A stretch of 64,000 bases of DNA, from contig JAFEMH010000162.1 in NCBI GenBank assembly GCA_022495995.1, positions 744,001 to 808,000 of the forward strand. The letters run 5' to 3'. This stretch comes from Adenophora triphylla var. japonica (Eukaryota > Streptophyta > Magnoliopsida > Asterales > Campanulaceae). Below the pieces are notes generated by a model. That model was not told the origin of the DNA. It did not search any database and was given only the letters and a program-made list of their open reading frames with translations. This document shows positions 21,503 to 60,658 of this stretch, one piece after another; positions within the stretch are counted from its first letter, which is position 1, and each line of letters begins with the position of its first letter. Made by a program: the position numbers and the translations under genes.

Positions 21503-21691
21503 TTAAACTGAGGGGATTTTGAAAGGAGCCAACATTGAAGGTTCATCTTTGCGTCCTCCATTAGATCGTAAAGTGTGATATTCTTGTAAGGTAACCTCCC
21601 TATAAATTTGAGGGTTTTCTTCTGAAATCAACTCCTTGATTGGCCCGTATAATCTAGTTTTAGAATTTTCCGCAAATAATGGCATGAAGAA
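21503..21691 (-). CDS. Dioxygenase exon 3, C-terminal part (after the copia insertion)
   Basis: The frame from 21691 encodes FFMPLFAENSKTRLYGPIKE and continues to the family C-terminus (ISEENPQIYREVTLQEY ... LAPFKIPSV, TAA at 21505-21503). The phrase YGPIKELISEENP is a signature of ACC-oxidase-homolog-type dioxygenases. It continues exon 3 part 1 (26768-26847); joined directly the frame is short by one base, consistent with a small deletion at the right copia junction. A host transcript reading through would stop inside the copia LTR, so this segment is probably no longer translated with the rest. Confidence 0.88.
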   Translation of the reverse strand, partial: FFMPLFAENSKTRLYGPIKELISEENPQIYREVTLQEYHTLRSNGGRKDEPSMLAPFKIPSV

Positions 21692-22118
21692 TGTTGAAAC
21701 CGAATGCGGAAATGGATCTTGCACTTCCCACACACCCACACGAACAAAGTAACAAACGAGACACAAGATTTACGTGGTTCGGAGAAATTCTCCTACGTCC
21801 ACGGGTGGCAACCAAAATCACTATTAGGTGATTACAAATTGTTTACAAAGTGATCTCTCACTACAAATGTGTCTCTCTCTCACAAAGTGTTTAACACTCC
21901 AAATGATTTCTCACAACTTGCCACAATACTAGAAAGCATCCTACCAAAGCCTATTTATAGGCACAAACCATCCAAGGATAAGGATGTATCAAGAGAGAGA
22001 TGGAACACCAAAGTGTTTCTTGGGAAACACCAAAAGCCATCATACATTCACCATGTGGATAATGATGAATGTCCAAATGAATAATAGATAATTCTAGAAC
22101 TTGAAGCCAAAACCAACA
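21692..22118 (-). repeat. copia-3 3' LTR (left copy)
   Basis: Plus-strand ends TGTTGAAACCGAATGC and GCCAAAACCAACA; on the element strand TGTTGGTTTTGGC...GGTTTCAACA. A TATA box (minus CTATAAATAGG) lies at about 21950-21960. Confidence 0.95.
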
Positions 22119-22135
22119 ATCTCCACCTTGGCGAA
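22119..22135 (-). promoter_or_regulatory. copia-3 polypurine tract
   Basis: Minus strand AAGGTGGAGAT abuts the LTR start TGTTGG. Confidence 0.85.
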
Positions 22136-22183
22136 AGTTCCAACTGCAAAACCGGGTCAGGTTGCCACCAAGACCGCCGGCTA

Positions 22184-26343: not shown

Positions 26344-26767
26344 TGTTGAAACCGAATGCGGAAATGGATCTTGCACTTCCCACACACCCACACGAACAAA
26401 GTAACAAACGAGACACAAGATTTACGTGGTTCGGAGAAATTCTCCTACGTCCACGGGTGGCAACCAAAATCACTATTAGGTGATTACAAATTGTTTACAA
26501 AGTGATCTCTCACTACAAATGTGTCTCTCTCTCACAAAGTGTTTAACACTCCAAATGATTTCTCACAACTTGCCACAATACTAGAAAGCATCCTACCAAA
26601 GCCTATTTATAGGCACAAACCATCCAAGGATAAGGATGTATCAAGAGAGAGATGGAACACCAAAGTGTTTCTTGGGAAACACCAAAAGCCATCATACATT
26701 CACCATGTGGATAATGATGAATGTCCAAATGAATAATAGATAATTCTAGAACTTGAAGCCAAAACCA
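26344..26767 (-). repeat. copia-3 5' LTR (right copy)
   Basis: Colinear with and visually identical to 21692-22115; it lacks only the terminal ACA. On the gene strand, reading from exon 3 into this LTR meets TAG after seven codons. Confidence 0.95.
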
Positions 26768-26847: not shown

Positions 26848-27169
26848 CTGCATAAACAAATTGAGTTTACTTGGTTCCTAAATCATATACCTCTGGCATA
26901 AAGTTTGTGTAACTAACTAAAACGAGTTTCCGTCCCAAAATGAATGATCACTTTGAATTTAAGAGTCATTTTTAAAATATTGATTTTTAATAGAAAAAAG
27001 AATCATAAACATTCTTGCTATTCACTTTCAAAATTTAAATTTTGTAAAAATATACTGAACTATGAAAAAGATGAAAAAAATTTCATTTATGGACAATTTT
27101 TTATTGAAAAATTTCAAAAGATCATTTATTTTGAGAAAACAGTGGAAGTACAAAATTATGTAAACTTGC
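26848..27169 (-). other. Intron 2 of the dioxygenase gene, GC-AG borders
   Basis: The donor is CAG|GCAAGT at 27169 and the acceptor TGCAG at 26848; 322 bp, AT-rich. CAG|GCAAGT is the classic strong context of the minor GC-AG intron class, and the join gives DLLQ-LLTNDKF exactly as in the family. No GT in the neighbourhood keeps this join. Confidence 0.85.
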
Positions 27170-27681: not shown

Positions 27682-27826
27682 TACTCTCTCCCATTTGAAA
27701 GTTCCCATTTTTTTGGGACGGAACTAAATGAAAAATATTAAAATATTAATAGTAAAGTAGGTGTTTCTAGTGTATATAAAAAGTGAGTGAGAAAAAAGAA
27801 TGTGGGGTAGGGACGAACGGAGAATA
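27682..27826. mobile_element. Probable Stowaway-type MITE in intron 1
   Basis: TA-flanked ends CTCTCTCCCATTTG and (reverse complement) TTCTCCGTTCGTCC, with the inner phrase CCCATTTTTTTGGGACGGA common in Stowaway MITEs of plants. About 145 bp. Ends diverged. Confidence 0.55.
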
Positions 27827-27910
27827 TATCAATGAAACCTGGTTGGGGTATGGTGCTTGATGGACAGTCTAATTTATTTGGTCTACGTTATATTGATTGA
27901 GAATTGGAAA

Positions 27911-28423
27911 TGATGACGCCACAACTTTTAGGGGTATCACAAGGATGAACATTGGCTTTATACGACTAATGTACCTAAACACAAACAATAAGCGCTATTA
28001 GAGACCAAGCCGGGGTTGATTTCGTCTCAGGGCCTTGGGTGTAAGATTAAGATATTTGACGTTTGATAACTGAGATATAAGCCTTGTAATGTCTTGGTGT
28101 GTTTGTGTGATAGGGTTTGGATAATGTGACTTACCTTACCATGGAAGAAAAGTGAGTATATATAGTAGAGAGAGACCAGTTGGATGGATGTCAGCCTTGG
28201 GTATATTTGTCTTGACCAAGTGAGAAGCTGGTGTCAGAGCTTGTACGGAATCGTGTCCCACAAGCTTGATATTAATTGGGAGTATGGTATAAAAACGCGA
28301 TCAACGCAGACCGGGAAGGCTCGGTCAATGCGGATTAGGAAGGCGCGGTCTTAGGTGTGCCACGTCATATATTGCCTTTGTACCATAGCGAGCTTGGCCA
28401 GTCTAAAGGGTTCGGGCTTATCA
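27911..28423 (-). repeat. Tat 3' LTR (left copy)
   Basis: 513 bp, TGATGACGCC ... GGGCTTATCA on plus. Compared with the right copy (about 700 bp after removing the CRM insertion) it lacks about 190 bp after GTCTTGACC. A TATA box (ATATATAG region) lies at about 28155. Confidence 0.88.
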
Positions 28424-28739: not shown

Positions 28740-31700
28740 CTTGGCCTATAAATACCAAACCCCTCTTCCCTTCAATATTTTATCACTCCCATCTTTTGGG
28801 TTTGCATCTTAGAGAGAGAAAAATTTCACAGCTTCCTTAAGCATCCTTCTTGCTAAATCATCTTTCGTTAGTTTTCTTTTTGTAATTCCTCCTTCTCCAT
28901 CTGTCACTCACCATTACTTATTTTATGGAGCGTCCATTTTAGCTAGGCAATGGGATGCCCTAACACCTTCGCCGTTGATAATAAGTCGGGTGGATTTATC
29001 GTAAGGTTGCTGGGGTTCGGGTGAAACTGTCTCTTGGGTCTTTCGAATACTTCGCTGTGAGGTATGAATGGGGAAATTGGGTCACACCCCGGTTGTGGGA
29101 AGCCAAGGGGAGGAATTTTTTGACTGGTGACATGCTAGTTTGAGGAAACCACACCCGTTTGAGAAATTTTGTGATGGGGGTGCTGTGCAGGTTTCCTAGA
29201 GAACGCAATCAAGCTTTGAATGCCCAGGAGTTGGTAAGGAGAGTTCGAATTGATCCAATGGTTAGACATATTACTCAATGGGAGAAGGTGTATATTGCTG
29301 ATGAAATCGAGCTAGCTGTGGCCCCTGATGCTGCAGCTGAGCCCGCGACCAACCTTGAAACTACTGAGAACGCGGCCTCCTTGGCCGTAGTTAAACCCTT
29401 GGCCCAGATCGAGGCCCAACCTAGGGCGGTCATAACTTAGGTAGCAATGGTTAAGAGGCCATGTATATGGATGAGTTGGACTTAGAAGTAGCTCAACCTT
29501 CTTCCTCGGACTCTTCTTTGGAATAATATGGGTCCGGAAGTAGTTCTGAAACCGAGGTGAATAATAGGGAGATCGCAGACTGCATGGCGGTGGATACTGC
29601 CCAGAGAGCGGTTGAGATCATTGATGCTTTCTTTGAAGGCCATGTGGAGACCGTTGCTATTCGAGAGCAGAGTCAAATCGGTGCTTCCACCTCTGGCTGT
29701 GGTCATTCCAAGAAGAAGGGTGCAGTCCGCAAGGCTAATGAGGACAAACTAGCCTTAACCTTTAACATTGACCTAACTCCTTCTTCATTAGCGGGCTGCA
29801 GAAGATAGAGCACAATGGTAATCTTCATCCCGAGACCATCTTTGTTGTCTGGGATAGCAATAGGGCATGTGTCTTTTCTGGAGCCTAGTTCGAGTGCGGT
29901 CTCAGACTTCCTCTTGACCCCTTTATCGTTCAATTTCTTGAATTCAACAACTACCTGCCAATGCACCTTACCCTAAATAATGTTCGAGCATTAATTTCTT
30001 TCATAATTGTGTGTAAGGTTTTAGGGTTTGATCCTACCCTTCCTGGGCTATATGCCTTCTATTTCAACCAAATAACTAATGGCAATCTCAGCCTGAAAAC
30101 CAAATCCAATTCTGCCAAAACCTTCTCTCCACCCAACAATAAATTTGATCAATAGAACCAGACGAACATTTTGTGATCGAAAATAGGTTCGGTTGGAGCT
30201 TCCCTAGGCTTGAGGGTTTGGCCCCCATTAGGATTTCTGTGAGCTCATACCCTAGCTTGTCATAATATGAGGAGTTGCTGATCGCGTTCACAAAATATTT
30301 AGCTTTACATATCCAGGGGAAGGTGACCCCAGTTTTTGACGTGGCCGAGATTGTAGAAGATGAGCCTCTGCTGATATATGTCGGGTTGGACCCCAAAGAG
30401 AAGGGTTAGATGTGGCTCCTAGAGTAGAGATAGGGACAATCCTACGCGATCGGACTGGAGAGTCCATGAGTTCTTCTAATTCGTGTCCAAATGTGGATCC
30501 TGCATGATAAGTGCGGTCTGCGAACCTACAGAGTGGATCGGTCTCTTTTTAATTTTCGTTTCTACAGTCATCGTACTTTACTTGCTTTCAAAATTTTGAA
30601 CTGCGATCTGACTTTTCTTTATCTTTATGCTGACCCCAAAGATATTACAATGGCTCCCAAGGTTTCTCAGGCTGAGCTTAAGGCTGCCTGGGTTCGTGAA
30701 ATGGTCAAGGAGAGCAAGTTGAGGCAGGAGAAGCTCCAGAAGACTCCTGCTCAAGGTGTGATTTTGCCCGTGGTAGATAGGGTGAGTGGGGAGCTCCTGG
30801 CTGTGGGGCACGGCATCCCTAGAATAAAGGATCTTCCTCCCCGATCTCAATCAACCCATGGCCGCGGTACTGATGATGATCGTGTTCCACCTAATGCTCA
30901 ATCTGACAAGATATATAAGGGGAGTACGAGTCCGCAAACCGATGCGGAGAGCTCGGGCAAGGACAAGCAACCAAGAGTCCAAGACCCCAATGTCATAACC
31001 CTTGCTATCCCTACCAGCTCGCCTGCCATACCGAGCTCCATTTATGGGAGTGCCTATCCCTTGGTTGATATAGATACTAGGGAGAAGGCCTGGGATCTGA
31101 GCAATAATTTGGGGAAGGTTTATGTTGTCCACAGGGGGACCTATACTCCAGGTGGGGTGATAATTCGATGGTAGAGCTTGGCCTTTTAAACAGGCTCTAT
31201 TGCCCAGATTATTATGAGAAAGTGGGCTCTAAGCTCAATGCTTCCGCCTTAGCTGGTAACATCGGTCTGATGGCCGCACAGGTACTTCGTCTCTTCACAT
31301 CTTGTTTTTCCTTTATTTTTCTTCCTTTTCCTATTTCTTACTATTTCCTTTTCTATTTTTAGATGGTCGATGATGCCATGCGGCTGAGGAAGATCACTTA
31401 CGAGCAAGTGGCCTCGATCACTGATAAGAATAAGGAGTTGATAAGGGCGCTTGAGGAGAAGGAGGTCCTCAATAAAACTCTGCTCGAGAAGGAGTTCGAT
31501 CTGAAACAGGTTTGTGGAAGATTGGACACCTCTCTCAAATCTCTGGATAAAGCCAACGACGAAGGGAATGATCTCCGTGGGAAGAAGGAGCATCTGGAGA
31601 AAGATATCATGGAGTACCAGAAGAAACTGGAGGCTGCGCAAGTGCATGTCAAATAATTGGAGGCCCAAGTTGACAAGCTGTCCGACGAGCTTGTGGCTTT

Positions 31701-37103: not shown

Positions 37104-38062
37104 TAATAAATGGCTATTTTATTGTCATTTATAGTATTTTTATTACGTTTTTACTTTAAAATTAATGCCAATTAAGTATAAATTAGCTTCTTTTATTTTA
37201 TATCTTCGATTTTACGCTTGGTTGGGATTTTGTGTAAATTTACAGGCTTTAGGACCATATTTTGAAGTACAAGGGGCTTAGAGTAAAGCTTTGGAAATAG
37301 AAGGGTCAAAACTAAAAATTGCAGAAGATCAGTCCAAGGCAGCTGCTGCTCGGCCGATCACCTTCTTGACTCGGCCGAGCATGAAGGACCATAAGGAGGC
37401 TTGCTGAGGAAGACCTTGCTCGGCCGAGCACGTCCCTTGCCTCGTCCGAGCACCCCCTGTTCGGCCAAAAGATGCCTTTTTCCAAGAGATGTAACCCAAC
37501 TTGTATGATTCTAGTTAATCGAGAGAAGGACGTAGCTATGAATCTCGATTAGCGGAACCATATGAAGAACTAGGTTTCATTAATCACGAGAGTAGATTAA
37601 TGGCCTAGGGATGTTCCTTGAATGGAAAGTACGTACAATTTATAAACATTAATTGATTCTTACTAATTATGGGCAATCGAGAGATAGGGCATAATTAGTG
37701 AAGAATACAAATGCTACTTTCTTGATCGTGAGAAGTAGTATAGGCTGAATGTACCATCCTTAATTTTGATGAAACTTGTATTCAAAGGCATGATTATTTG
37801 ATGAATAAATAATTGCTCGAGTCACAAATCCGAGAATACCTTCATCTTATAAGAGTTAAACTAAAGTAATCTGTGTATGATTTAGTATTTTCATAAACCA
37901 AATCATATTTCCCCCAATATTATTTCTATAAATCTATATAAAAACAAATATCCTTCTAAGTAAACCATGTCTCTATGGGATCGACTCGTATTTGTACTTG
38001 CTAAACTATATATAACCCGTGCACTTGCGGTATAAAAATAACCGTTAGGTTCTGAGACAACA
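37104..38062 (+). repeat. Athila-A 5' LTR (promoter deleted)
   Basis: 959 bp. Compared with the 3' copy it lacks about 400 bp, including the TATA box (present in the 3' copy at about 50242), and has about 60 bp near its end that the 3' copy lacks. It carries CTCGGCCGAGC-type palindromes at about 37345-37465. Confidence 0.88.
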
Positions 38063-38065
38063 AGC

Positions 38066-38087
38066 TTTTGGGGCCATTGCCGGGGAC
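38066..38087 (+). promoter_or_regulatory. Athila-A primer-binding site
   Basis: TTGGGGCCATTGCCGGGGA starts six bases after the LTR, the common Athila/Tat primer site. Confidence 0.85.
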
Positions 38088-38203
38088 AACGGTTTACTTT
38101 TTGATATTTGTCTTTACTACATATTTTTGTCTTAATTTTTATTAAATATTATTTCCGAAGATTTGTTGCGTTTAATTTCTTTCTTGAGTATTCTTTGCAG
38201 TTT

Positions 38204-39290
38204 ATGAAAAGAACTCGGATCTTCCTTGATAATTTCGATTCGGAACCCGAAAGAACTTTTCACGAAAGATTAAAGAAGACTCAAAGAAGTGCTAGATCAA
38301 CAAATGGCGGAAGAGGTACCCGCAACACCACCTAGGACCTTAAGGGAATTTGTTAATCCAAGTACCCCGGGAACTAGATCACCTATAGTTGTGCCGAACG
38401 CTAATGCGGCCAACTTTGAGATAAAACCTCAGCTAATTCATATGGTTATGAATAACCAATATAGTGGTTCATCATTTGAAGATCCTCACCTCCATGTGCA
38501 AACATTCCTAGAATATTGTGACACCACCCGAATCCAAGGTGTCACGTCTGAGGCAATAAGGATGCGCCTTTTCCCTTTATCTTTGAAGGATAAGGCAAAA
38601 TAGTGGTTGAACTCGGTCCTCCTGAATTCCTTGACAACATGGGACCAAGTTCAAGAGCTCTCCTAGGGTGTTTCTTCCCACCAAGTAAGACCGCCCAAAT
38701 CCGTACTAAAATTACAAACATTAGCCAAACAGGAATCGAGTCACTGTACGATGCTTGGGAGCGGTTCAAAGAGCTCCTAAAGATGTTCCCTCACCACGGG
38801 CTTGAAAAATGGTTGAGTGTTCATACTTTCTACAATGGTCTCACATTCAAAACGAGAGAGACCATAGATGCTGCTGCAGAAGGGGCACTTATGAATAAGA
38901 CGGTGGACGAGGCATATAATCTCATCAAGGACATAGCCTTAAACCACTATCAATGATCGAATGAAAGGGAGCAACCGCAAGGAACTCCAGGTAAGTACAA
39001 CGTTGATGATGTTACTCTCCTTTCATCTAAAGTTGATATGATTTTGAAAAAGTTTGAAAATCTTAATGTGAATCCCATGAACAGCGTTAACATTGTTTGT
39101 GAATTATGTGGGTCAAACTCACATTGTACGGACTGTTGTGAACTACTTGACACCACTTCTTGTGAGCAAGTAAATTTTGTTAATTCTTATAGACAAAAGG
39201 GGGGTATATATTCAAACAGATACAATCCCGAGTGGAAAAATCACCCCAATTTTTCCTATAAGAGTAACAATGTTTTAAACACATAACCTT
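38204..39290 (+). pseudogene. Athila-A gag
   Basis: Starts MKRTRIFLDNFDSEPERTFH. Phrases NFEIKPQLIHMVMNNQYSG, DPHLHVQTFLEYCDT and RMRLFPLSLKDKAK are the Athila gag core. A TAG follows DKAK where a Trp-containing continuation (WLNS) is read, then frameshifts lead to WERFKELLKMFPHHGLEKWL and FYNGLTFKTRETIDAAAEGA. A cysteine-rich segment (CELCGSNSHCTDCC) near 39100 is the nucleocapsid zinc motif. Non-functional. Confidence 0.85.
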
Positions 39291-39361
39291 CGGCACAACC
39301 ACCGGGATTCACACAAAAGAATTTCAATTCTAATTCTAATGCTTTCCCTCTCCCTAAATAT

Positions 39362-41717: not shown

Positions 41718-41722
41718 AGTTT

Positions 41723-43252: not shown

Positions 43253-44882
43253 GTTTGGGACCATAGTCGGGCTAACGACTTTAACCAAATGCGCTGCTTG
43301 GAAGGCAACCCAATGAGGTATGCTTTATTTTTTTTATGTTAATTACTGTCTAGTAGTGTCTTGCCATCCGTTAAATCCTAGACACGCTTTTGTTCTCTTT
43401 GCTATGAGGACATAGCATGTTTTGAGTTTGGGGGTGGGCAACTCTCCGAGTTTGTGGGTTTATAGGGGAGTGTATATAGTGTCACCCTCTAAAAAAATAG
43501 AAAAATTTAAAAAAAAAATTGTTCTTTTCATAGTTGGGATGTTGGCCAAAGTCTGTGATGATTAGAGTGTGCTTTAATTTTAAAATCACATGTGCTATTA
43601 TTAGTGTGGTGATTGGGATTGCATTGAAACATTTAAATTATGATTGCACCACCTCTCACTTCCGTATCATATTCTTGGTCATTGTCATCAACTTAGGTGC
43701 CTTTTATGGGATCACTTCGTGTATTCTCGGGGTCCCTAGAACATGTTTGCATGATTGTTAATATCACGTCAATAGGTTACTTGATATATATGGCTATTCT
43801 TTGAATCCCTTTTTGTGAGCCTTAAACTTTCTAGTCACTAAAAATTTTCCGCTAGAACCCCTTTTGAGCTTGAAAAAGAATGAAATCTCTCATAAAGTGG
43901 GAGGTTATCTTAGACCACCATTCGCCTTCATTTGTACCCTCATTATCCCACCCTTTTAACTTATACACTATTTTTTTACCTTTTCAAGAAAGTGAAACTA
44001 GGAAATGAATTGGGAATTGTGGGGGAAGTTTGGAAAATCAAGGGTTGAATGGAAAGTGGTCACGAAAATAAAGAAAAGGGTCATGTTATGTAATGAAAAG
44101 AGGGGATTGATAAAAAAATATATATATATTGAATGCACATTCTTCGTGATGTAATTGTGCAATGCAAAAAAAAAAAAAAAAAGCCTTGCCTCTCTAATAT
44201 CAAAGTGGAAATTATGTTTCAAGGTGACCAAAGAAAGTAATGGAATGTGTTTAGCCCTATGTCAATGTATGAAAAAAATTTAGTTTGTGGGTTGGCACAT
44301 TGGGAAGTAATAAGGGTGAGTGGAGAAATTATCATCAAAAGTGGGGATGTTGTGTTAAAAGAAGACTTTCTAGTTTCACTTTCTTATGCTCGTATGTCCT
44401 TACCTTCATTTGTAACCATGAACCTAGCCCTGTGATCTTTCGCAACTTAACTTTTAGGCCATATCATTCTTTCAAATACCGAGTAACCGGGTTGACAATC
44501 GTGTAAATGTGCATATAAGTGTCCTTTTTGGGATTGTACTGTCTATGACATATTGATTTAGAGCATCACTTAGTAAATCCATAAACAATCTTAGGTTGTT
44601 GGCAGTGACCTCCCATAATTCATTCATCATTCAGGCCGCGGTGGAAAATTGTGAGTTTTATGCTTCAATGTGATTGTAATCCCATTACTGTGGTGGCACT
44701 TGTTGATTATGTGTGTTGGTAAGAATCTGAGACTTGTATGGCCAATGACTCATCTGTGATAGAACATCCCAAAAATAATTATTTTGCTTTAATGTTTTAT
44801 TATTAGTAGTTAGAGTAGTTTTATTTTATTTCTTTTAGTTTAGTTTTACTCGGAACGAGCAAAAGGTTAGTTTGTGGGTGTT
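43253..44882 (+). other. Element B 3' non-coding region
   Basis: 1.6 kb without a conserved frame, although an autonomous element would have pol here. Includes GTTTGGGGGTGGGCAACTC-like purine phrases near 43427 and a polypurine-like AAAGGTTAGTTTGTGGGTG before the LTR. A short A run at 44166-44181. Confidence 0.6.
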
Positions 44883-46480
44883 TGATGGATGTGTATTTAC
44901 CCATTCAAATGATGCACTTTTAGACTTCCTTTGTGTTCGATTCCCGAGTTTTATGTATATTTGATATGGTTTGTGAGTATTTTATGAGTACAGGGTATAG
45001 AGCTGATTAAAGGTGTATTTTATGGCTAAAAAGTGCAAAAGAAATAAAGTGGAGCTGAGCAGAGAAGGACAATAGTGAAATAAACGAGCTCCAAGGACTA
45101 AATGGGAAATATTGGAAAATTCGGGGACTGAACTGGAAATATGGAATTTTTGGACGAATTTGATGTATAAAAATTTCTGGGATAAAATGAAAAATAAAAT
45201 CTCAAAGAGCGAAGCGCAGAAGAAGTCATTAAAGTGGTCAAAGTGCGACTGCAAGATAGCGGGACGAAACGAATATGTATTGTTACTAAACAGGGCCAAG
45301 CAATTTGGGGTCCATGGCCGGCCACTGCTGGGGAGTTGGGGCCAGCTTCTAGGCCAGTTGGGGCCAAGGCCTGGGATTCTTGGGCCAAGGCAAACAAGGG
45401 CGGCCGCGCACATAAGAAAGAAAACGCCGGCCAAGTTGCTGCCAATAAGGGCGGACGCGCCATTTTACAAGGGCGGCCGCGCTAGGGAAATCAAGTCTCG
45501 GCCAAATTGTCTGCCCATTAGAGCGGCCGCGCCAACATCAATTGCGGCCGCGCTCCTCCGTCTCCAACTGCGATTTTCACATTTCAATTGAGGGGCATTC
45601 ATGTCTTTTCTCGCCTTGGACCATTGACTTTTGCCCTATTTTCTTTATATAACCACAGCAGCCACGTTAGGAGGATCAGATATCATATATCATAGCATTG
45701 GATTTTTTTTATTGTTCTTGAACAAATCAATTGAAGAGGAGAATTATTCCGAATTTTAGGTTTTTATTATTTGTAAATTATGAGTAGCTAAATTCTTAGA
45801 TTTGTAGATTGTTTTGATCTTCACCGTATTTCTATGCAATAGTATTTTAATTCTTTCAATTTAATTTCTTCTAGTTAAATAATAGATCTTAATTTCTTGT
45901 TCTTAGATTTGAGATGCATGTTAATATGCAAACTCGTCTTTGAATAATTGGGTATTTATTGAGCCATTAATTTGGGCGATTTATACATAGACTGCTATTA
46001 ATTGAATAACTTGATCTGTGCCGTAATAGAATCGGATCAACGTTAGGTTATTGTATTCTTTCGTGCTTAACGTATTCTTGGCATATTGTGGAACCGTAAT
46101 AGAATTCACAATATTAAAAAGAGTATTTAGGATTGTAATCCGGCCACCTAACCGTATCGATCCTAGCTAAAGTGAATGAATCCTAGAAGTTGAGTTGATG
46201 TTTTATAAGTAAAATTTTGCATAGAATGATGGTGAAGTGAAATCCAATCTACGAATCTCTGCTCATAATCTTCTTTCTCGTTTAGTTAGTTTTTGTTATT
46301 TAATTTATGCTCTTAGTTTTTAAATCAAATCTATAAACTTTGGTTACTAAATTCATTGTTTTTACTCTATTTGTTTACCAACGAGTCTCTGTGGATTCGA
46401 CCCCTGCAATTGCATACTGCTACACCGGTAGTGAGTACACTTGCTCAGTTTTTATTACAAGAGGGAGTTTTCCTCCATCA
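44883..46480 (+). repeat. Element B 3' LTR
   Basis: Colinear with 40120-41717 without a length difference; about two dozen substitutions noticed by eye. Confidence 0.95.
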
Positions 46481-46485
46481 GAGGA

Positions 46486-46915
46486 TGTGTAAAAAATCGA
46501 ACACCCAAAGAGGCATGAGATGGCAAGTTGTTAAAGACAACATGCCGTCACAATACCATTCATTGCCCGTATTGATTAAAGGAAAGGGGTCGAGCTAATG
46601 ACCTTAAACAAGCATCATCGGTGTAATAAACCGATGGATTATTTTGCTTTTCTATTTTATTTATAATTATTTATTTTTATGTTTTATACTAATTTTGTTT
46701 TGTAGGCATTTAAAAAAAATTGCAGAAAAAGTGCTCGGCGGAGCACCTCACATTACTCGGGCGAGCAAGGTGGAATAGAAGAAACATCAGACTGGAGGCT
46801 GATGGTCGGCTGAGTCAAGGCTCATGCTCGGCCGAGCAAGATGCATCAGCAGCAAATTTTTTAAAGTCAAAAACGGGGCTTTTGGTTTTTTTTTTCTCAC
46901 TTTCCACCTCCCTAG

Positions 46916-46953
<38 letters not shown>

Positions 46954-47288
46954 CCCTCAAAATATCAACCCCCTATCAACACAAATCCACCATTAATTTC
47001 GGCCAAACGAAGTTCATCCACCCTAATTCCATCTTCTATACACTACCCAAACCATCCACTACCCACAAATCACCCCAATACCTCCAAAACCCTAGTTCTT
47101 CCTTCCAAACCTAAAAGTTCAAATTTGCTCAAGTTTGTGGGTCAAGAAGATTTCTTTGAAGTTCTCAAGCTTCAATCAAGGAAGAAACACAAGGTCACAA
47201 GTCATTACTCGGGTAATTCAAAATTTCTCTCATTCCTTTTTTTTAAAAAAAATGTTGGGTTTTGATTCTAGTTATCCTTAAGCTCACC
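46486..47288 (+). other. Athila-A inter-ORF region with LTR-like palindromes and (CT)n
   Basis: After the broken protease region comes non-coding DNA with GCTCGGCGGAGC, CTCGGGCGAGC and GCTCGGCCGAGC (46733-46850), the same motif class as in the Athila-A LTR, then a (CT)n run (46919-46951). No coding sequence for RT or integrase. Confidence 0.55.
46919..46951. repeat. (CT)n microsatellite
   Basis: About 15 CT dinucleotides upstream of the ATHILA ORF-1-like gene. Confidence 0.9.
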
Positions 47289-48390
47289 ATGGACAAAAGA
47301 GGAAAGGGAAAAACAACAACTAGGGCACCAAAAAGATCCTATAAGGATGACTCTTCTAGCTCTAGATTAACCCCAACACTTAATACTTTAGGGATTAATT
47401 TCCAATTCGAATCTGAAACTGCTAGATTTGCTAAGCTCTGTGGGAAGAATATTAAACCCACACAATTCCCTGACTCAGAAACAATGAGAGCCTAAGGAAT
47501 TAGGGGCAATATTTGGTCTTTACATCAAGGGTTAAGTAGTGAGGAATTTCTGCAAATGAGCGAGAAGACTTACGAAAACCTCACCCTAGAATTCCTAAGT
47601 TCTATGACCAAGAGAACAAGAACCTTGATTGATAATGAAACGGGTGAAGAGTTTGAGGATATATAAATAGGATTCCGACTGCTAAACACTCACCACACCC
47701 TTGACCTTGAGGAGATTAATTAACGATGTTCTTGGTTGGCCTTCCTCCAGGACGTCCCGAATATACCCCCTCCACATTATAATGCGAACATCTTTTGGAT
47801 GGAAATCACAGGCCATACACCTTTCCTCCCCAAAACATCCAAAGCCTTCTTAATTATTCATCCCGTTCTCTGTTATATCCATAGAATTTATGCTTGCACA
47901 ATTTTTTCAAGAGAGGATAAGGGGACAATCAACATGAATGAATTATTTCTTTTATGGGCATTTGTCATGGGGTATAGAGAGATAAATTTGGGAAAATGTT
48001 TCATTGACCGACTTTGGGATCACATTTCCTCTAGCTTTTCCGGTGACATTCACATAGGGGTGATGATAACGCTCCTAGCGATTTATGTTTGTATTCAATT
48101 ACCAGAAGAAGGTCCCGATGCTTGGTTACTGGTAAAAGGGTCAAGAGTGCTTGATATAGCGGCCTAAAAGTAATGAATATGATTTCTGAAATTGAACAAG
48201 GAGGGTACACATGGTTTGTGGGAGGTGGAGCAAATAAAACACCTTATGCCATTTTGCCCAATGCCAATATCCCCGTAGTATCAATAAGCAAACCGAATAC
48301 TTGGATTTTCCCTCATATCTTAGGTCAAGATGAAGAAGGGAATGTACGATTTAATTTGGGGCAAGAAGAAGGGAATGAGGAAGAATAACA
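47289..48390 (+). pseudogene. ATHILA ORF-1-like protein gene (broken)
   Basis: Starts MDKRGKGKTTTRAPKRSYKD. After a TAA at 47493 and shifts, frame 47736-48167 contains the family core: NIFWMEITGHTPFLPKTSKA, IIHPVLCYIHRIYACTIFSR, NMNELFLLWAFVMGYREINL and HIGVMITLLAIYV. A C-terminal part follows at 48173-48388 (EQGGYTWFVGGG). This protein of unknown function is encoded downstream of pol in Athila elements. Here it lies directly after the gag-protease remnant because pol is absent. Confidence 0.8.
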
Positions 48391-49835
48391 ACAACCAACA
48401 AACCTAAACCAAAACCAACTACCACCCGAATTTTACACTAGATTTGACCAAATGACCCTCCAAAATAACCAAATTCTCCAACACCTATCCCAATTTTCCC
48501 AAGAATTCCATGAATTCCAAACTGATATCCAAGGTCGAGTAAACACCGTCCAAGGACAAGTAGACTCCATCTACAATTACGGGATCAATCATTGGGAAAA
48601 CTTTCCACCACCACCGCCACCACCACAATTTTTGTAAGTGTCTTTTCTTCTTTCCCCACCATGCTTATCTCTCCTTAAAACATTGATGAAAATGTTTAAC
48701 TTCAAGTGTGGGGGAAGATTTCATTTCCGTTTTTACTTGCATTTTAGTTTAGTTTTTAATTCATTTTTCTTTATGATTAGCTTAGTTGCATTTTTTCCCC
48801 TTTTTGTTTTCTATGTATACATTAGAAGCATGTTTAACTTTCAAAAAAAAATAAAAAAATCTCTATGATGATGAAGTGTTCTAAGCATTAAAAAGCTTAT
48901 TTAATTGCCTTTAAAATCAATTTCTATACATTGATTCGTATCTTTTCAAAAATTTGAAAAAATTTCCTAGAAATTGACTTTAGGGATATATTGGGAGATA
49001 GATAAAATAATTATAAATTAATATAATATAAATAAAATTGCTCTAAAAAGCATTATTTTTTGAAAATTTTAAAGCATTGGATACTATAATTATTTTCGTA
49101 AAGATTATCTTTGCGCTTCGAGACTTTCATCTTTGAACTTCATTTTTCGAAGGGCACTCATCTCTTTATGCACCATTTTTTGGATCACTTTTACCTCCAT
49201 TCCATCTTCAGGCTAGTTAAGAATAAAAATGAACACGCCTTGCTTCAATAAACTTCTTCACCCAAAAATTAAAATGAATAAATTATTATTAGAGTGAGAA
49301 AAAAAAAGCAAGGTGTGATGGCATTTCAAAAAACTTGTATCATCTTTAAAGAATGCTACTTAAAATGCTAGCCTTGACCCCTTCCTTTCCACTTCCATTA
49401 ACACGACCATTAATTGTGATTCAAGAATGTTGTGCTAAAATCTTTAAAGTGTCTTTTCTAAAGTGAAAATCATCATTTTAAATCCTTAAAGTTGCATAAC
49501 AAATCTTTTCTCATTTTTTTTTTCAATACAAGCATCTTCATTTTCAAATTTTGCTTAGAAAAACATTTATTTATGCAAAGTTAATTTTAGTTCTTTTATC
49601 TAGACTCCAATATGTCTTAAAGATCTTTTTAGGAAACACTTTCATTTTTGGATGATATGAATCAATATCGAAAATAGTTTTATTAAAGGAACAATCGTTA
49701 ACAACACATCAAATCTGAAAGGGAGCCACTTATTTATTTTAATCTTTCTTTTTGGTCATTTACTTCTCTCTCTCTCTCTTCTATTTTTTATTCAAGACTT
49801 GCTTGGGGACAAGTAAGGTTTAAGTGTGGGGGAGT
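48391..49835 (+). other. Athila-A 3' non-coding region and polypurine tract
   Basis: A short Pro/Gln-rich frame (48452-48637) may be the ORF-1 tail. The rest is AT-rich and non-coding. The end GCTTGGGGACAAGTAAGG then GTGTGGGGGAGT, directly before the LTR, is the standard Athila polypurine region. Confidence 0.65.
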
Positions 49836-51129
49836 TGATAAATGGCTATTTTATAGTCATTTATAGTATTTTTATTACGTTATTTACTTTAAAATTAATG
49901 CCAATTAAGTATAAATTAGCTTCTTTTATTTTATATCTGATTTTATGATTGGTTGGTATTTTGTGTAAATTTACAGGCTTTAGGACCATATTTTGAAGTA
50001 CAAGGGGCTTAGAGTAAAGCTTTAGAAATAAAATGGTCAAAACTGAAAATTGCAGAAGATCAGTCCAAGGCAGCTGCTACTCGGCCGAGCACCTCCTTGA
50101 CTCGGCCGAACATGAAGGACCAGAAGGAGGCTTGCTGAGGAAGACCTTGCTCGACCGAGCATTTCCCTTGCCTTGGTCGAGTACCCCCTGTTCAGCCAAA
50201 TGATGCCTTTTTCCAAGAGATGTAACCCTTAGCTAAAATGGCTATAAATAGGACCCTTGTATTCAGTCTTAGATTTAGAAAATCATCTGAAAAACACACA
50301 GAGAGATATCAAAATACTCTAGCAATTTACTTATATTCAAAGATTCATCGATTATTCTTAGAGTGATTTTTGAAGATCGAAGCAATAAAATTTCTGAAGT
50401 TTACTTTCAGTTCTTGTTTCTCCTACGAGCATAAGTCTTTCTATCCCTAACTTCGTTTTATTATTTTATGTTTGTCTTAATTATTGGTTGTGAGTAATCC
50501 CCCAAATTCTTGGGGTTGGAAACTCAGCACTTTTATTCATCACTTTTAAAATCATGCCATCTCTCTTCATCTTAACAATTCTTTCATATCAAATTGAAAA
50601 GACTAACATTTTGGAGACGTCCAACTTGTATGATTCGAGTTAATCGAGAGAAGGACGTAGCTCTGAATCTCGATTAGCAGAACCATATGAATTGAACTAG
50701 GTTTTATTAATTACGAGAGTATATTAATGGCCTAGGGATGTTCCTTGAATGGAAAGTACGTAGACTTTATAAACATTAATGGATTCTTACTAATTATGGG
50801 TCATCGAGAGATTGGGCATAATTAGTGAAGAATACAAATGCTACTTGCTTGATCGTGAGAAGTAGTATAAGCTGAATGTACCATCCTTGATTTTGATGAA
50901 AACTTGTATTCAAAGGCATGATTATTTGATGAATAAATAATTTCTCGAGTCCCAACTCCGAGAATACCTTCATCTTATAAGAGATAAACTAAAGTAATCT
51001 GTGTATGTTTTAGTATTTTAATAAATCAAATCATATTTCCCCCAATCTTATTTCTATAAATCTATATAAAAACAAATATCCTTCTAACCCTATCTCTGTG
51101 GGATTGACCTGTTAGGTTTCGAGACAACA
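49836..51129 (+). repeat. Athila-A 3' LTR (complete promoter)
   Basis: 1294 bp. CTCGGCCGAGC-type motifs at about 50078-50200 are followed by a TATA box (CTATAAATAGG, 50242-50252) and transcript leader-like sequence that is deleted in the 5' copy. Confidence 0.9.
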
Positions 51130-52796: not shown

Positions 52797-53190
52797 TGAT
52801 GACATCAGAACATTTGGGGGTCTCACAAGGATAAACACTGGCTTTATGTGACTGGTGTACCTAGAGCACAACACAAACAATAAGCACCATCAGAGACCAA
52901 TCTGGGGATATTGTGGCTCAGGCCCTCGGGTGTGATATTAAGACCTTTGAGGTTTGATAACTGAGATATAAGACTTGGAATGTCTTGGTGTGTTTGTATA
53001 ATAGGGTTTAGACAATGTTACTTACCTTGCCCTAGAGGACAAGTGAGAGTATATATAGTAGAGAGAGAGAGAGAGAGAGAGAGATCAGTTGGATGGATCT
53101 CAGCCTTTGGGGTTATTTGTCTTGACCTCGGACACATGTTCGCGCCTAGTTGAATCGTACAATAAAGCACAACATATTGTAGAGGGATGT

Positions 53191-53737
53191 TGATAGCCAA
53201 AAGCCTATGAGAAATAGCCGAACGGAATTAATAACCAAAGTTCTGAAGAAAAAGCTTCAGCTTTTCTTATGAAAATTCAATCAACAAAAACTGCATTAAT
53301 CCAAGCTAAAAGATGTTTAAATACTCCATCCAAACCCTAAAACAAAGTGACAAACGAAAGACCAAAATATCCCCATTAAAAGTTCAAAACACCAGATCAA
53401 ATACGCATAAGGAAACAGCAATACGTAAATAAGGAAACACCAAACAATGCGAGGCGCCCGCCCCGTGAAGTGTGAGGCGTCCGCCTCCAATCCAGTAACT
53501 CATTGCTTGGTCGAACATGCGTGAGGCGGCCGCATGGGCCTCTGTGAGGCGTCCGCATCGCGCTCCGTAGCAAGGCCTCCTTGTTCTGCAAATGGGGCGC
53601 CCGCCTGATCATGTTTGATGCGCCCGCCTGGCCTTGTGCTGCTGCTGTTGCTCGCTGCCAGGCCTTTGCCCCTACCTCCATGAGCTGTGCCAACCATGCA
53701 TCCCTTGTTTGTTGGAGTATCATGTAGAACTATATCA
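53191..53737 (-). repeat. CRM 3' LTR (left copy)
   Basis: TGATAGCCAAAAGCC ... GAACTATATCA on plus. Element-strand TATTTAAACATC promoter box near 53307; GGCGCCCGCC / GGCGTCCGCC repeats (53448-53635) lie upstream of it. The polypurine tract (minus CAAGACGGGGAGGA) borders it at 53738. Confidence 0.93.
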
Positions 53738-56700
53738 TCCTCCCCGTCTTGAGAAAAACTCGTCCACGAGTTGCCATCATCGTCATTGTCTCCATGGTAA
53801 GCTGATAAATCCGTGACATTGAACGTGGCAGAGACGTTGTACTCATCGGGCAAGTCAATCTTGTACGCATTGTCATTAATTCGCTCCACTACACGAAATG
53901 GACCATCAGCCCTTGGTTGTAACTTGCCAAAGCGACCAGCTGGGAATCTCTCCTTTCTCAAGTGCACCCACACCAAATCTCCAACCTGAAACACAAACCG
54001 TTTGCGATGCTTGTCCACCTGCTGCTTGTACATGTTGTTTTGACGTATAATGCTCTTGCGAACCTGCTCATGAAGCTCTTTAATCTGAGTTGCACGCGCC
54101 TCAGCATCCGAACTGTACTGACTGGTAACCGGAAGAGGAATAAGGTCCAATGGACTGACAGGGTTACGGCCATACACAACTTGGAAAGGGCTTTTGCCCG
54201 TAGTGCTGTTCCGAGAATTATTGTAAGCAAACTCGGCTTGTGCAAGTGTCAAGTCCCACTGGCGGGGATGGTCACCAACTAAACTGCGTAATAAATTACC
54301 CAAACTACGATTAGTCACCTCAGTCTGTCCATCCGTCTGCGGGTGATACGAGCTACTGAACTGTAAGCATGAGCCCATCTTCCTCCACAATGTGCGCCAA
54401 AAATGGCTAACGAACTTGACATCCCTGTCAGAAGTAAGTGATTTCGGAATGGCATGCAACTTCACAATCTCCTTGACATACAAGTCTGCCACTTGTGTTG
54501 CATCAAATGTCTTACTGCAGGGAACAAAATGGGACATTTTTAAAAATTGATCCACCACCACCATAATGGAATCCTTCTGTCGTTGTGTACGGGGCAATCC
54601 CAACACAAAATCCAAGCTAATGTCCTCCCACGGAGCAGTAGGAACCGGCAAAGGAGTATAAAGGCCTGCATTGGACTTGCGAGTCTTGGCTACATGACAC
54701 ACACGACATCATTCCACAAACCGAGCAACATCATGCCCCAACTTTGGCCAAAAAAATTGCTCGCCTACAAGAGCGAATGTCTTATCTTTGCCAAAGTGTC
54801 TTGCAAGTCCCCCTTCATGACTCTCGGATATGATAAGGTCCCTCAACGAACAATAAGGGACACAAAGCTTGTTCCCCTTAAACAAGTAGCCATCATGGAT
54901 CAAAAATTGCAGAAAATTACCTCGAGTACACTTATCCCAAACCTCCTCAAAATATGGATCATCACGGTACAAATCACGAAAAGTGTCAAATCCGCATACC
55001 TCAACCTGCAATGTAGATATTAAGGCATGTCGACGGCTCAAAGCATCAGCCACACGGTTCTGAACTCCCGCCTTATGTGTAATGACAAACGTAAAAATCT
55101 GAATGAACTCCACCCACTTGGCATGTCGCAGATTAAGCTTATGCTGCCCTTGGATGTATTTGAGTGCCTCATGATCAGAATACAACACAAACTCCTGTGA
55201 CAATAGATAATGTTGCCAATGCTCCAAGGTGCGAACAATGGCATAGAATTCCTTATCATAGGTAGAGTACTTCTTCTTAGCATCGTTCAGTTTCTCACTA
55301 AAGAAGGCGACAGGCTTCTTATTCTGACTCAACACTCCGCCAACGCCAACATTGGAGGCATCACAATGAACCTCAAAAACTTCATCAAAATTAGGCAAAA
55401 TAAGAACAGGGGCTTGTGTCACCGCCGTTTTCAAGAGCTGAAAAGCATCATCTGCTGCCTTATTCCATACAAACACACTCCTCTTGATGCAGTCAATAAG
55501 AGGGGCAATAATACTGCTAAAATCACGAATGAAACGACGATAAAAGGAAGCCAAACCATGAAACCGCCTAACATCATGAACATTCGTCGGTGTAGGCCAG
55601 CTAGTGATAGCTTCCACCTTCGAATCATCCATACGAATGCCCTCCTTGGTAACAACATACCCCAAGAAGGTCACTTGCTCCGTCAAAAAGTGACACTTCT
55701 TACGATTAGCATAAAGTTTCTGCCCACGCAGAACATCAAAAACCTGTCTCAAGTGTACCAAGTGTTGTTCCACAGATTTACTATAAACCAAGATATCATC
55801 AAAATAAACAACAACAAAAGTACCAATGAAAGGTCTGAAAATCTGGTTCATGAGTCGCATGAACGTGCTAGGAGCATTAGAGAGTCCAAACGGCATCACC
55901 ATCCACTCATACAAACCATCCCGAGTCTTGAAAGCCGTCTTCCACTCATCCCCCAGTCTGACACGAATCTGTTGGTACCCGCTCCGCAAATCAATCTTGG
56001 AAAACACCACCGCACCATGTAACTGGTCAAGCAAATCATCGATCCGAGGAATGGGAAACCTGTACTTGATGGTTATTTTATTGATCGCCCGACTATCCAT
56101 ACACATACGCAATGTTCCTTCAGCCTTAGGTACCATCAAAGCAGGAACCGCATAAGGGCTCATACTTTCCCGAATGACACCCTTGTCAAGTAACTCCCGT
56201 ACTTGTCGCTCTAACTCCTCATGTTCCTTGGGTCTCAATCGATACGCAGCCTTGTTCGGAATAGAGGCACCCGGAACAAGATCAATACAATGCTGAATAT
56301 CTCGCATGGGAGGGAGTCCCGGAGGAATCTCATCAGGAGTAACATCACCGTAATCATCCAATAATGACTGTACCTCTGCGGGAGTGGACATACCCGACTC
56401 GTTCTCCTCTAGCATGACAAGAACATAGAACCCTCGCTCCCCTGCTGAAGCTGAATCAAACTCTGAGCAGCTAAGGAGTTGGTGAACAACAGCATTCGTA
56501 GGTTTCTCACTAGTAGTCTGCTCCTGTCTCGGGTCCGTAGGACAAAGAGTAATATAGACATCATTCATGCGGAAGGTGTACGTATTCTTGAACCTATCAT
56601 GCTTAACCCGCCTGTCAAACAACCACGGCCTTCCCAACAAAATATGACATGCATCCATTGGTACCACATCACACCACACCTCATCTCTATAGCGCTTGCC

Positions 56701-58092
56701 AATAGAAAACTGCACGAGGCACCGCTTATCCACCTTGAGTTCATTGCCCTTGATCAACCAAGACAACTTATATGGCTGTGGGTGTACAACCGTAGGCAAA
56801 CTCAGCTTGTCCACCATTGTAGTAGAAACAATATTCTCGCAACTACCACCATCAATAATAACCTTGCACACCTTACCCTTGTCAGTGCACTTTGTATTGA
56901 AGATATTATGGCGAAGCCACTGATCATCATCTACAGCTGTTGTGTTCAACACACGTCTAACCACCAAGGCCGGACCCTTGTCTGCATAAACTACCTCGAT
57001 CTCGACGTCAGACACCTCGTCTTCTTCATCATAGACCTGCAACTCTTCCTCAAGTAAGGCAACAACGTTCCTGTTGGGACACTCGACTTGAAGGTAACCA
57101 ATACCCTGACATTTGAAGCACCTCGCAGGCTGCCTTCCCCTAGTATTTGTTGCAGTGGTACCCGAATTGGCTGTAACTGGTGTCTTAGGAGCAGTAGGGG
57201 GAACCCCTTTTAGTGTGCTAGAACTACCAACGCCTCTAGTGTTGGTAACATCTCTGCTCGGCCGACGATTCACCGATTTCTTTCGCTTCAACTGTTTCTC
57301 AACCTTCAAGGCAAGTCGACACACATCCGCATAGGTCCAATACTGCTGCAATTGAACCACCTCCGACACGTCAACACGTAGTCCCCCAAGGAAGCGAGCA
57401 ACGGTCTGTTCATCCTCTTCGAAAACATCACACCGCATCTGTAAACGATCAAACTCGTTGATGAATTCCTCAACGGTCATGTCCCCCTGTTTCAAATTAT
57501 GGTAATCAAGAAAAGCCTCCTGTCTATAGTGGTCCGGAAGGAATTTCCTTTGTAGCAACTTTTTCATCTTATCCCAAGAGTGAATTTTCGACTTCCCCTC
57601 TCTCGCCCGTTGCTTCTTAACATGTTCCCACCATATAGAAGCATGCTTTTTCAATTTGATTGCCACAACCTTAACCTTATGACTATCGTCCATGGGTTTC
57701 AAATCAAACACACGTTCAACAGTATTTAGCCAATCAATGAACTCATCAGGGTGTGCCTTACCTTCAAACTCCGGGATGTCGATCTTCATGCCTATATCCT
57801 TCGAAGGATCAGCCCCAAGCCTGTGTCCACGATCATGACCACGAGCGAAGGGATTGCGCCCGTCTGCAAAGCCTCCTTCCTCAGACGAGCCGTCTGAATC
57901 AGAGCCCACATTAGTGGGAGCCCGCATATCAGCAATCTGCTGTTGGAGCCGCTGAACTTGGTTTCGCAATTCGTCATTCTCAATATCGCGTAGGTCTCTC
58001 TCACGATGGATTTCATCCGCCTGGGGGTTTGTAAGACGGCCTCTACCCTGTCCACGACGACCATCTCGAGCACCACGTCCGCATTCGGCCAT
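53500..58092 (-). pseudogene. CRM gag-pol polyprotein with one nonsense codon
   Basis: Start taken as MAECGRGARDGRR at 58092, just after the primer site. Domains: gag (IDIPEFEGKAHPDEFIDWLN; FLGGLRVDVSEVVQLQQY), zinc knuckle CFKCQGIGYLQVEC (the His is replaced), protease (VIIDGGSCENIVS), RT ([28 protein letters not shown]), RNase H (VHCDASNVGVGGVLSQ; YSDHEALKYIQ), integrase (HEGGLARHFGKDKT; MVVVDQFLKMSHFVPC; TSDRDVKFVSHFW; HPQTDGQTEVTNRSLGN). The TGA at 54711-54709 falls just before the CxxC of the zinc region and looks like CGA to TGA. The frame continues 237 bp into the 3' LTR, as known for CRM integrases. Confidence 0.92.
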
Positions 58093-58097
58093 TGATA

Positions 58098-58117
58098 ACC
58101 AGGATACTGATACCAAA
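58098..58117 (-). promoter_or_regulatory. CRM primer-binding site
   Basis: Minus TTTGGTATCAGTATCC directly after the 5' LTR end; the first ten bases fit the tRNA-Met site TGGTATCAG. Confidence 0.8.
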
Positions 58118-58640
58118 TGATAGCCAAAAGCCTATGAGAAATAGCCGAACGGAATTAATAACCAAAGTTCTGAAGAAAAAGCTTCAGCTTTTCTTATGAA
58201 AATTCAATCAACAAAAACTGCATTAATCCAAGCTAAAAGATGTTTAAATACTCCGTCCAAACCCTAAAACAAAGTGACAAACGAAAGACCAAAATATCCC
58301 CATTAAAAGTTCAAAACACCAGATCAAATACGCATAAGGAAACAGCAATACGTAAATAAGGAAACACCAAACAACGCGAGGCACCCGCCCCGTGAAGTGT
58401 GAGGCGTCCGCCTCCAATCCAGTAACTCATTGCTTGGTCGAACATGCGTGAGGCGTCCGCATCGCGCTCCGTAGCAAGGCCTCCTTGTTCTGCAAATGGG
58501 CGCCCGCCTGATCATGTTTGATGCGCCCGCCTGGCCTTGTGCTGCTGCTGTTGCTCGCTGCCAGGCCTTTGCCCCTACCTCCATGAGCTGTGCCAACCAT
58601 GCCTCCCTTGTTTGTTGGAGTATCATGTAGAACTATATCA
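58118..58640 (-). repeat. CRM 5' LTR (right copy)
   Basis: 523 bp; same ends as the left copy; one fewer copy of the GGC-rich 23-bp repeat. Confidence 0.93.
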
Positions 58641-59052
58641 TATGTCTCTGATTGGACGAGGATATGGGGGCAGGCGACAGTTGGTGCGACACATTAACGC
58701 GCGTGATAGGCGCCTGAGCCTTCATTTTATGTGATGGTAACAGGCTTGCCATCTGGTGTCAGAGCTCGTACGGAATTGTGTCTCACAATCTTGATATTAA
58801 TCGGGAGTCTGATATGAGACCGCGGTCAACGCGAACTATGAAGGCTCGGTCAATGCGAATTAGGAAGGCGCGATATTAGTTGTGACACGTCATATATTGC
58901 CTTTGAACCAGAGCGAATTTGGGACCGATCTGAAGGAACATGGCTCATCAGGAAATAAACCCCTGAAAATCAACTTTTGTATTGAATTGACCAACTTCAC
59001 TTTTAATTTTTAGTATGGACCTTGGTCTGAAACAATTATCATTTATGCATAA

Positions 59053-59910
59053 GAATTAAATAATAATTTGGTCCCTAAAATTGTCACATTTTATTAGTTT
59101 GGTCCCTTATAAATATTTTTAATTAGTTTTATCCTTTTGTTGATTTTCTTTGTCAATTTGCCCCTTATGTTTGAAAAATATTCAATATACCAAGAATGCC
59201 TTTATAGTAGATAATAATTTGTTCCCTAAACTTAACACTTTTATCAATGTAGTCCCTTATGATGGTTTCTTATCAGTTTAACCACGCTATATATTTTGCT
59301 ATTTTTTACCCCTCAATAAAAAATATCCATTACTATGTGATCGATGTTGGGTTTTTCAAATTTTTTTATCCAATCCATACAAAACTATAATTTTTATTTT
59401 ATCCTTTTTTTATCAAATGATCAACCCCCAAAAAAATTAATTTTTTTATAATGTGTTGACAAAGTTAATTTGATTTTGTAAATTTTTGTATGAACTCTCT
59501 TTAAATGGAGAAAAATGAGAGGTAAGAAATATTGAGAAAAATAAAAAAAAAATCTATTAGAAAAATTAAAAATGATATTCAACTGATTCATGATTTCTTT
59601 AAATCAATATGTATAATTTTTTTATAATTTGGATTCAAAAAAGTTGAAAACTCTCAATATTACAGTAAGGGATATTTTTGACAGAAAGTTATAAATTGGC
59701 AAAAATATAGAGAGGGGATAAAGTGACAAATAACGATTATAAGGGACTAAATTGATAAAAGTGTTAAGTTCAGGGACCAAAATATTATTTAGTACAAGGG
59801 TATTTTTGAATATTCCATGAACAAAAGGGTCAAGCAGGTAAAAATAACCAACATAAGGGACCAAACTAATAAAAAGTTCCAAGTTAAGGGACCAAATTAT
59901 TATTTAATCC
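59053..59910. mobile_element. Mutator-like MITE with about 300-bp inverted repeats
   Basis: Ends GAATTAAATAATAATTTGGT and, reverse-complemented, GGATTAAATAATAATTTGGT. Both arms continue as inverted copies (GGTCCCT, TTATTAGTTTGGTCCCTTAT, CTTAACACTTTTATCAAT) for about 300 bp. The flanks TATGCATAA (59044-59052) and AATGCATAA (59911-59919) form a 9-bp near-identical target duplication typical of Mutator-like elements. Non-coding. It lies in intron 1. Confidence 0.85.
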
Positions 59911-60149
59911 AATGCATAATTAAAATAGTATTAACAAGAAGTTATATAATTTTATAAGGATAGTTAAATTTTCATAAAATATTTATTTTTAACAAAATTG
60001 AATTAAATTGACACAGAAAGTCTTGGTGTTCTTTCCGATAGTATTACACTGCAAGTCTACAACTATGCGAGAATTATTTTGAAACTCACAAAGGAATTGA
60101 GACTGTTATTATGGTAAGAAGGCAATAAATTTGATGGGTAGGTAATTAC

Positions 60150-60658
60150 CTGCAAACAGAAGGAAGTTGATGGGGATCAGCAGGACTAGGAGCCATTACC
60201 CAGGAAATTGAATCACTCCAGTTTGCCGGATCTCCGTTGTATAGAAGAAGATTGCTGATATAGGAAAACTTCTTCGAGAAGTCACGCGTATAATAATTCT
60301 TCTTCAATTCAACTTCAAGCTCGTGAAAACTTCTAACTCCTTCAATCATTTTATCCAAAACATTCATAGGTATTCCATGATTTATTATTTGGAAAAAACC
60401 CCATTTCTCACAAGCAACTCTAATTTTCTCAATAATATCAGTTCGATCAGCTCCAGCCAAATCTATGACCGGAATTTTATTGACTGGAGAGGAGATTAGA
60501 TCAGTAGATCTCGATTTCTCCTCATTTATGGATTTTTCGTGGATGAAAAACTGCGGGACTTTGGTTAAACCGGCATCAACAAGACCTTTGACTCCAGCCT
60601 TTGAATTATCAAAGGCTTTTATTTCGCTCTCACGATCATAACTACCATTGGCTGCCAT
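60150..60658 (-). CDS. Dioxygenase exon 1
   Basis: Start chosen at the ATG 60658-60656 (MAANGSYDRESEIKAFDNSK), because the family begins with this phrase followed by AGVKGLVDAGLTKVPQFF; an upstream in-frame ATG at 60733 gives an unlikely extension. The exon covers residues 1-169 with the N-terminal non-haem dioxygenase domain (NKIPVIDLAGADRTDIIEKI; ACEKWGFFQIINHGIP; GVRSFHELEVELKKNYYTRD). It ends HQLPSVC-R at the donor CAG|GTAATT (60149). 509 nt, phase 2. No stop or shift. The next exon is 32.7 kb away. Confidence 0.93.

Follow-up and report, generated by a model that had tools for sequence, protein, structure and literature searches.

A plant dioxygenase gene with a predicted intron 1 of nested LTR retrotransposons and a Copia element within exon 3

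We suggest that a 64,000-nucleotide stretch of the Adenophora triphylla var. japonica genome (contig JAFEMH010000162.1, positions 744,001 to 808,000 of the forward strand; hereafter the window) very probably holds a single dioxygenase gene, the predicted intron 1 of which was enlarged stepwise by four nested LTR retrotransposons and the exon 3 of which is split by a Copia element, leaving a shortened and probably inactive product. The parts of the gene and the elements inserted into it are listed in Table 1.

Table 1. Parts of the dioxygenase gene and retrotransposons lying within it (positions in the window; minus-strand features are mostly given in reading direction)
Feature	Position	Strand	Remarks
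Exon 1	60658-60150	-	509 nt, starts at ATG, DIOX_N domain
Predicted intron 1	60149-27492	-	32,658 bases, GT-AG
Outer element	27911-58950	-	Ty3/gypsy, Tat-like, old; LTR K2P 0.173
Outer element LTRs	27911-28423 and 52797-53190 + 58646-58950	-	
Element A	37104-51129	+	within outer element; CTCAC/CTCGC target duplication (4/5); LTR K2P 0.058
Element B	40120-46480	+	within A; 1.6-kb LTRs, K2P 0.0145; GAGGA twice (5/5); gag-like ORF
Element C	53191-58640	-	Ty3/gypsy, within right LTR of outer element; K2P 0.0077; GATGT/TATGT (4/5)
Exon 2	27491-27170	-	322 nt, H233 and D235, 2OG-FeII_Oxy domain
Predicted intron 2	27169-26848	-	322 bases, GC-AG
Exon 3a	26847-26768	-	80 nt, H289, R299, S301
Copia element	26767-21692	-	Ty1/copia, full-length, 5.1 kb, inside exon 3, in gene orientation
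Copia LTRs	26344-26767 and 21692-22115	-	identical, 424/424 bases
Copia gag-pol	26179-22187	-	open, 1331 codons
Exon 3b	21691-21503	-	62 codons and stop, phase differs from exon 3a

On the minus strand, exons 1, 2 and 3a together give a stop-free and phase-continuous frame of 303 codons of a 2-oxoglutarate (2OG) dioxygenase. Against the curated Pfam cut-offs, DIOX_N scores 71.3 bits (cut-off 27.3) and 2OG-FeII_Oxy 93.7 bits (cut-off 23), and the ligands H233, D235, H289, R299 and S301 are all there in the arrangement HxD...H plus RxS, which we take to be the iron triad and the 2OG motif of the enzyme, respectively. A protein search returned 3432 matches, the best 120 of which were listed; among these, identity to plant 2OG dioxygenases is at most 63% across 98% of the query, far above chance. 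Relatives bear names such as 1-aminocyclopropane-1-carboxylate oxidase homolog 1 and deacetoxyvindoline 4-hydroxylase-like, and those with a solved structure include feruloyl-CoA ortho-hydroxylase 1 (4xae). By descent, the gene is a plant 2OG-Fe(II) dioxygenase, with the coding sequence of the present copy interrupted in its C-terminal part. It shares both domains and the ligands with its named plant relatives, but is divergent from them (end branch of 0.52 in a tree of exon 1 and of 0.29 in a tree of exons 2-3) and, unlike them, has an interrupted exon 3.

The first-pass annotation had described a dioxygenase of about 366 residues with all cofactor ligands, encoded by stop-free exons that fit together in order, strand, phase and splice sites. 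The full set of ligands and the open exons are borne out, and the fit holds for exons 1, 2 and 3a. It fails for the pieces at 21.5 and 26.8 kb, which are the halves of an exon 3 split by the Copia element, with no splice-site join between them. Since these halves are out of phase, the locus as sequenced cannot be read through as a 366-residue protein.

At the splice sites of exons 1 and 2 the split codon and the phase agree, and the earlier claim of a 32.7-kb intron of nested transposons agrees with what we find: predicted intron 1 has GT-AG ends and is made up mostly of four nested LTR retrotransposons with target-site duplications. The donor of the much shorter predicted intron 2 is GC rather than GT (27168-27169, minus strand), in the context CAG|GCAAGT.

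The left LTR of the outer element begins with TGATGA and its right LTR ends with TCATCA. For the flanks of inserted elements, an agreement of at least 4/5 has a chance of 0.020. Judged by LTR divergence, the outer element is older than A and A is older than B (p ~1e-8 each), with no significant difference between B and C (p 0.27). Supposing that C came last, the size of intron 1 went through steps of ~1.6, 13.2, 20.8, 27.2 and 32.7 kb. Substitution rates of 7e-9 and 1.3e-8 per site and year are in use for plants, and at these the outer element would be 12.3 or 6.6 million years old, respectively.

Elements of the Tat lineage are marked by a reverse transcriptase (RT) that precedes the integrase, a Tat-type primer-binding site and an antisense ORF. 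Remnants of RT and then integrase follow each other on the minus strand of the outer element, the primer-binding site of which is degenerate. A 234-codon ORF without a Pfam match (30470-31174) runs antisense to the outer element, in a position which, we presume, resembles that of the antisense ORF of Tat elements. The gag-pol frame of element C (58131-53500) is open except for one in-frame stop (54709-54711). The interior of element B (41718-44882) holds a gag-like ORF (PF03732); because tblastn with two gypsy queries gave no match to a reverse transcriptase inside it, element B is probably non-autonomous. The older part of intron 1 also includes an imperfect inverted repeat (59043-59919; arms 59043-59399 and 59601-59919, 69%), like a foldback or MITE-type element, and a stretch near 27690-27830 that we take, by resemblance, to be Stowaway-like. 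Outside the gene, a Ty3/gypsy element with LTRs of 2.3-2.4 kb (96.4% identical over aligned sites) lies downstream at 6490-15775, with Copia remnants on either side of it and on opposite strands (17-1617 and 16243-17906), and two tandem arrays are found upstream of exon 1, at 61850-62187 (63-base unit, 5.4 copies) and 63566-63791 (113-base unit, 2 copies).

Constraint on the exons during the growth of the intron was addressed with drift simulations, starting from the present exons and with drift set at half of the LTR divergence, and with a test of conserved columns. Both are tied to the LTR clock, and the drift test has as its premise that the exons mutate at the rate of the LTRs. Under drift, the probability of acquiring neither a stop nor a frameshift since the insertion of the outer element is ≤0.0008, or ≤0.004 with a transversion-based distance, and 0.013-0.078 since that of A. 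As the homologues were selected by similarity to the query, the column test is biased toward conservation: at a conservation threshold of 95% of the 97 homologues, the query is changed at 0/71 columns (34/97 homologues equal that), at 90% it is changed at 0/102 (matched by 3/97), and at 80% it deviates at 14/153, the homologue mean being 12.9. Drift would be expected to bring 12.7 conserved-column changes over the time since the outer element inserted and 4.6 over that since A; zero changes were obtained in 0/10,000 runs for the former and with a probability of 0.008 for the latter. The joint probability of no stop, frameshift or conserved change since A is 0.0002-0.001.

Selection on the exons is thus probable for a time when the intron was already large: the simulations and the column test support its having acted once the intron was past the 13-kb stage and, with less confidence, past the 21-kb stage. 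At the full LTR rate, the joint probability of no lesion is 0.11-0.17 since B and 0.32-0.40 since C. Because the steps to 27.2 and 32.7 kb happened too recently for the test, nothing shows selection at those stages. The earlier proposal that coding capacity was kept alongside a giant intron can therefore stand for the period following the insertion of the old Tat-like element, and goes too far for an intron of 32.7 kb, the last insertions being too recent.

Among alternatives, the one that survives best, though still unlikely, is that the gene died long before the arrival of Copia and that its exons stayed intact by chance or through slow exon mutation. At half of the LTR rate, the probability of no stop or frameshift since the outer element becomes 0.002-0.03 and the joint probability since A 0.012-0.029, which leaves some room for such an early death, and the donor of intron 2, being GC, could represent a lesion acquired early. 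However, neither set of highly conserved columns contains a change, the joint probability since A is far lower at the full LTR rate, and CAG|GCAAGT is the usual context of working GC introns. We therefore retain the reading in which the exons were under selection through at least part of the growth of intron 1.

The element inside exon 3 is recognized as Copia by its gag-integrase-RT order of Pfam domains, its LTR pair and a primer-binding site after the first LTR; the best-scoring match of its polyprotein is from Actinidia (70%). A target duplication is absent on comparison of the flanks, which differ, and the upstream LTR is without its first three bases. Only the first two bases of codon 304 are present at the end of exon 3a, whereas exon 3b opens at codon 305, the junction of the exon halves being short by one base relative to the frame of the relatives. 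The simplest reading of this would be that a small deletion took place at the upstream end of the element. Unspliced readthrough of exon 3a gives ...VSVAAGFGFKF followed by a stop, that is, a predicted product of 310 residues from which the last 62 are lost. In such a product the iron and 2OG ligands would be kept and the C-terminal end of the fold would be missing; it would probably be inactive.

Copia is younger than B, with LTR differences of 0/424 versus 23/1598 (p 0.008), and indistinguishable in age from C (p 0.13). Zero differences at 424 sites correspond to a 95% upper bound of ~0.7% divergence and, at the plant rates given above, to an age of roughly less than 0.3-0.5 million years. 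Most likely, then, Copia inactivated the gene recently and the present allele is recently dead.

We regard it as very unlikely that the allele still works thanks to splicing of Copia out of its mRNA as a newly formed intron. There are precedents. The Copia element Evelknievel in exon 13 of Arabidopsis CMT1 is spliced out, as backed by RNA (PMC6238269), and among new ONSEN insertions in Arabidopsis genes an exonic one is spliced out as a new intron, with others ending transcripts early (PMC12112155). In the present locus, a GT at 26765 together with AGs just before 21717 and 21723, all in the LTRs, would preserve the reading frame at the cost of about nine extra residues. However, the 27/150 GT/AG pairs found to stay in frame as far as the natural end compare with about one third expected from frame alone and, being without a control or a splice-site score, carry no weight. 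In CMT1, moreover, the frame is restored in only 25% of splice events and full-length mRNA is rare (PMC6238269). The two cases are alike in having a frame-breaking Copia inside an exon, but CMT1 keeps its target duplication (PMC6238269), whereas here the duplication is absent and one base is missing. The ONSEN insertions are likewise Copia insertions in genes, but arose in an experimental burst in a known host (PMC12112155), whereas the insertion described here is natural. That the spliceosome would remove both the 32.7-kb intron and the 5-kb Copia, yielding a working dioxygenase of 375 residues with nine of them LTR-derived, has only a very small chance of being right; if true, transposons would have been intronised at two successive levels within a single gene in nature.

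We give an equally small chance to the Copia junction having arisen in the assembly or belonging to a heterozygous insertion, with the working allele not the assembled one. The missing target duplication and the loss of one exon base and three LTR bases at the upstream junction would fit with this, and assemblies often go wrong at identical LTRs. Yet past the element exon 3 picks up again with the codon that comes next, which a chance join would hardly give. A recent inactivation of the assembled allele by Copia remains our preferred explanation.

Evidence that the exons belong to one gene comes from the outer element itself and from phylogeny. GGAAA is found on both sides of the outer element (27906-27910 and 58951-58955), a 5/5 target duplication; between random intron places, 5/5 agreement has a frequency of 0.0014. 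Intron 1 minus the outer element measures 1,613 bases, and the perfect five-base duplication implies that exons 1 and 2 were ~1.6 kb apart before the element inserted. Further to that, exon 1 and exons 2-3 were each given a tree of their own, built with 97 homologues of 345-392 residues (taken from the best 120 of 3432 after 23 had been dropped), and the two trees were compared by the smallest set holding the query (no more than half of the rows). Both trees place the query in an identical 11-row set, consisting of the query and 10 homologues, with SH-aLRT values of 93 (not starred) for exon 1 and 97 (starred) for exons 2-3; the exon-1 placement is weakened by the long end branch (0.52) of the query. 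Seven members of the set are named, from Cynara (three), Cichorium, Lactuca, Arctium and Centaurea, all presumably Asteraceae. The grouping of the exons with different paralogues, which the first-pass annotation had put forward as an outcome speaking against one gene, is thus not what these trees give.

A comparison of BLAST-score ranks of the homologues between exons proved weak, since the homologues are nearly equidistant, and lends no support as regards exon 1: ranks for exons 1 and 2 were uncorrelated (rho 0.11, p 0.30, n=99), those for exon 1 vs 3a, exon 1 vs 3b and exon 2 vs 3a were near zero too, and rho was 0.28 (p 0.006) for exon 2 vs 3b and 0.40 for 3a vs 3b. No further dioxygenase fragments were found in the window at E < 0.05. 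We reject a reading as two unrelated fragments in view of the target duplication of the outer element and the two exon trees. The duplication, the trees and the lack of further fragments support the reading of exons 1, 2 and 3 as parts of one gene and, together with the K2P of 0.173 between the LTRs of the outer element, uphold the original view of a single gene holding an old Tat-like element in its intron. That exon 1 and exons 2-3 are leftovers of two different dioxygenase genes is scarcely credible: the 32.7 kb between exons 1 and 2 and the uncorrelated ranks would suit it, but the 5/5 target duplication, splice sites that agree in phase and in the codon they split, and the identical 11-row set in both trees all speak against it.

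For the one-gene reading we propose the following course of events. An ancestral working gene would have had its exons 1 and 2 ~1.6 kb apart. Its intron 1 would then have taken up the outer Tat-like element, followed by A, B and C, with these nested insertions being tolerated, the gene presumably being transcribed and spliced across the growing intron. Purifying selection on the exons is likely through at least the earlier growth steps and may have acted until near the present. Copia would then have inserted in exon 3 and ended the reading frame in this allele.

Large introns of this kind are known from grapevine, where 2,563 genes were found to contain 2,697 introns of 3-100 kb backed by ESTs; in the 39 genes compared, the large introns were mostly 5' in position (PMC3058033). 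Some large-intron genes of grapevine were split in annotation (PMC3058033), the kind of outcome that the first-pass annotation had expected from software at the present locus. As in the present locus, these are single genes with introns made largely of repeats, including LTR retrotransposons; in grapevine, however, splicing is proven by transcripts, whereas here it is predicted from the sequence. In the present locus, LTR divergence gives an order for the nested insertions. A copy of IBM1 in Theobroma cacao has a methylated intron of 27.2 kb (PMC11265718), and in Arabidopsis factors such as IBM2 and EDM2 are needed for transcription to pass through intragenic TEs (PMC10241880). The cacao gene and the IBM2/EDM2 targets likewise have long introns that need to be transcribed through, but they are other genes in other hosts, whereas ours is read from the DNA only. 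A literature search found no case closer than grapevine, IBM1, CMT1 and ONSEN.

As plants are already known to have both giant introns filled with TEs and Copia insertions in exons, the locus leaves the picture held in the field unchanged. The locus offers a clean example in which stepwise growth of an intron by nested retrotransposons would have been tolerated before an exon was struck. It also illustrates the need to examine such loci closely: pieces lying far apart very probably make up one gene here, and the allele in the assembly has most likely died recently and is not a working gene with a giant intron.
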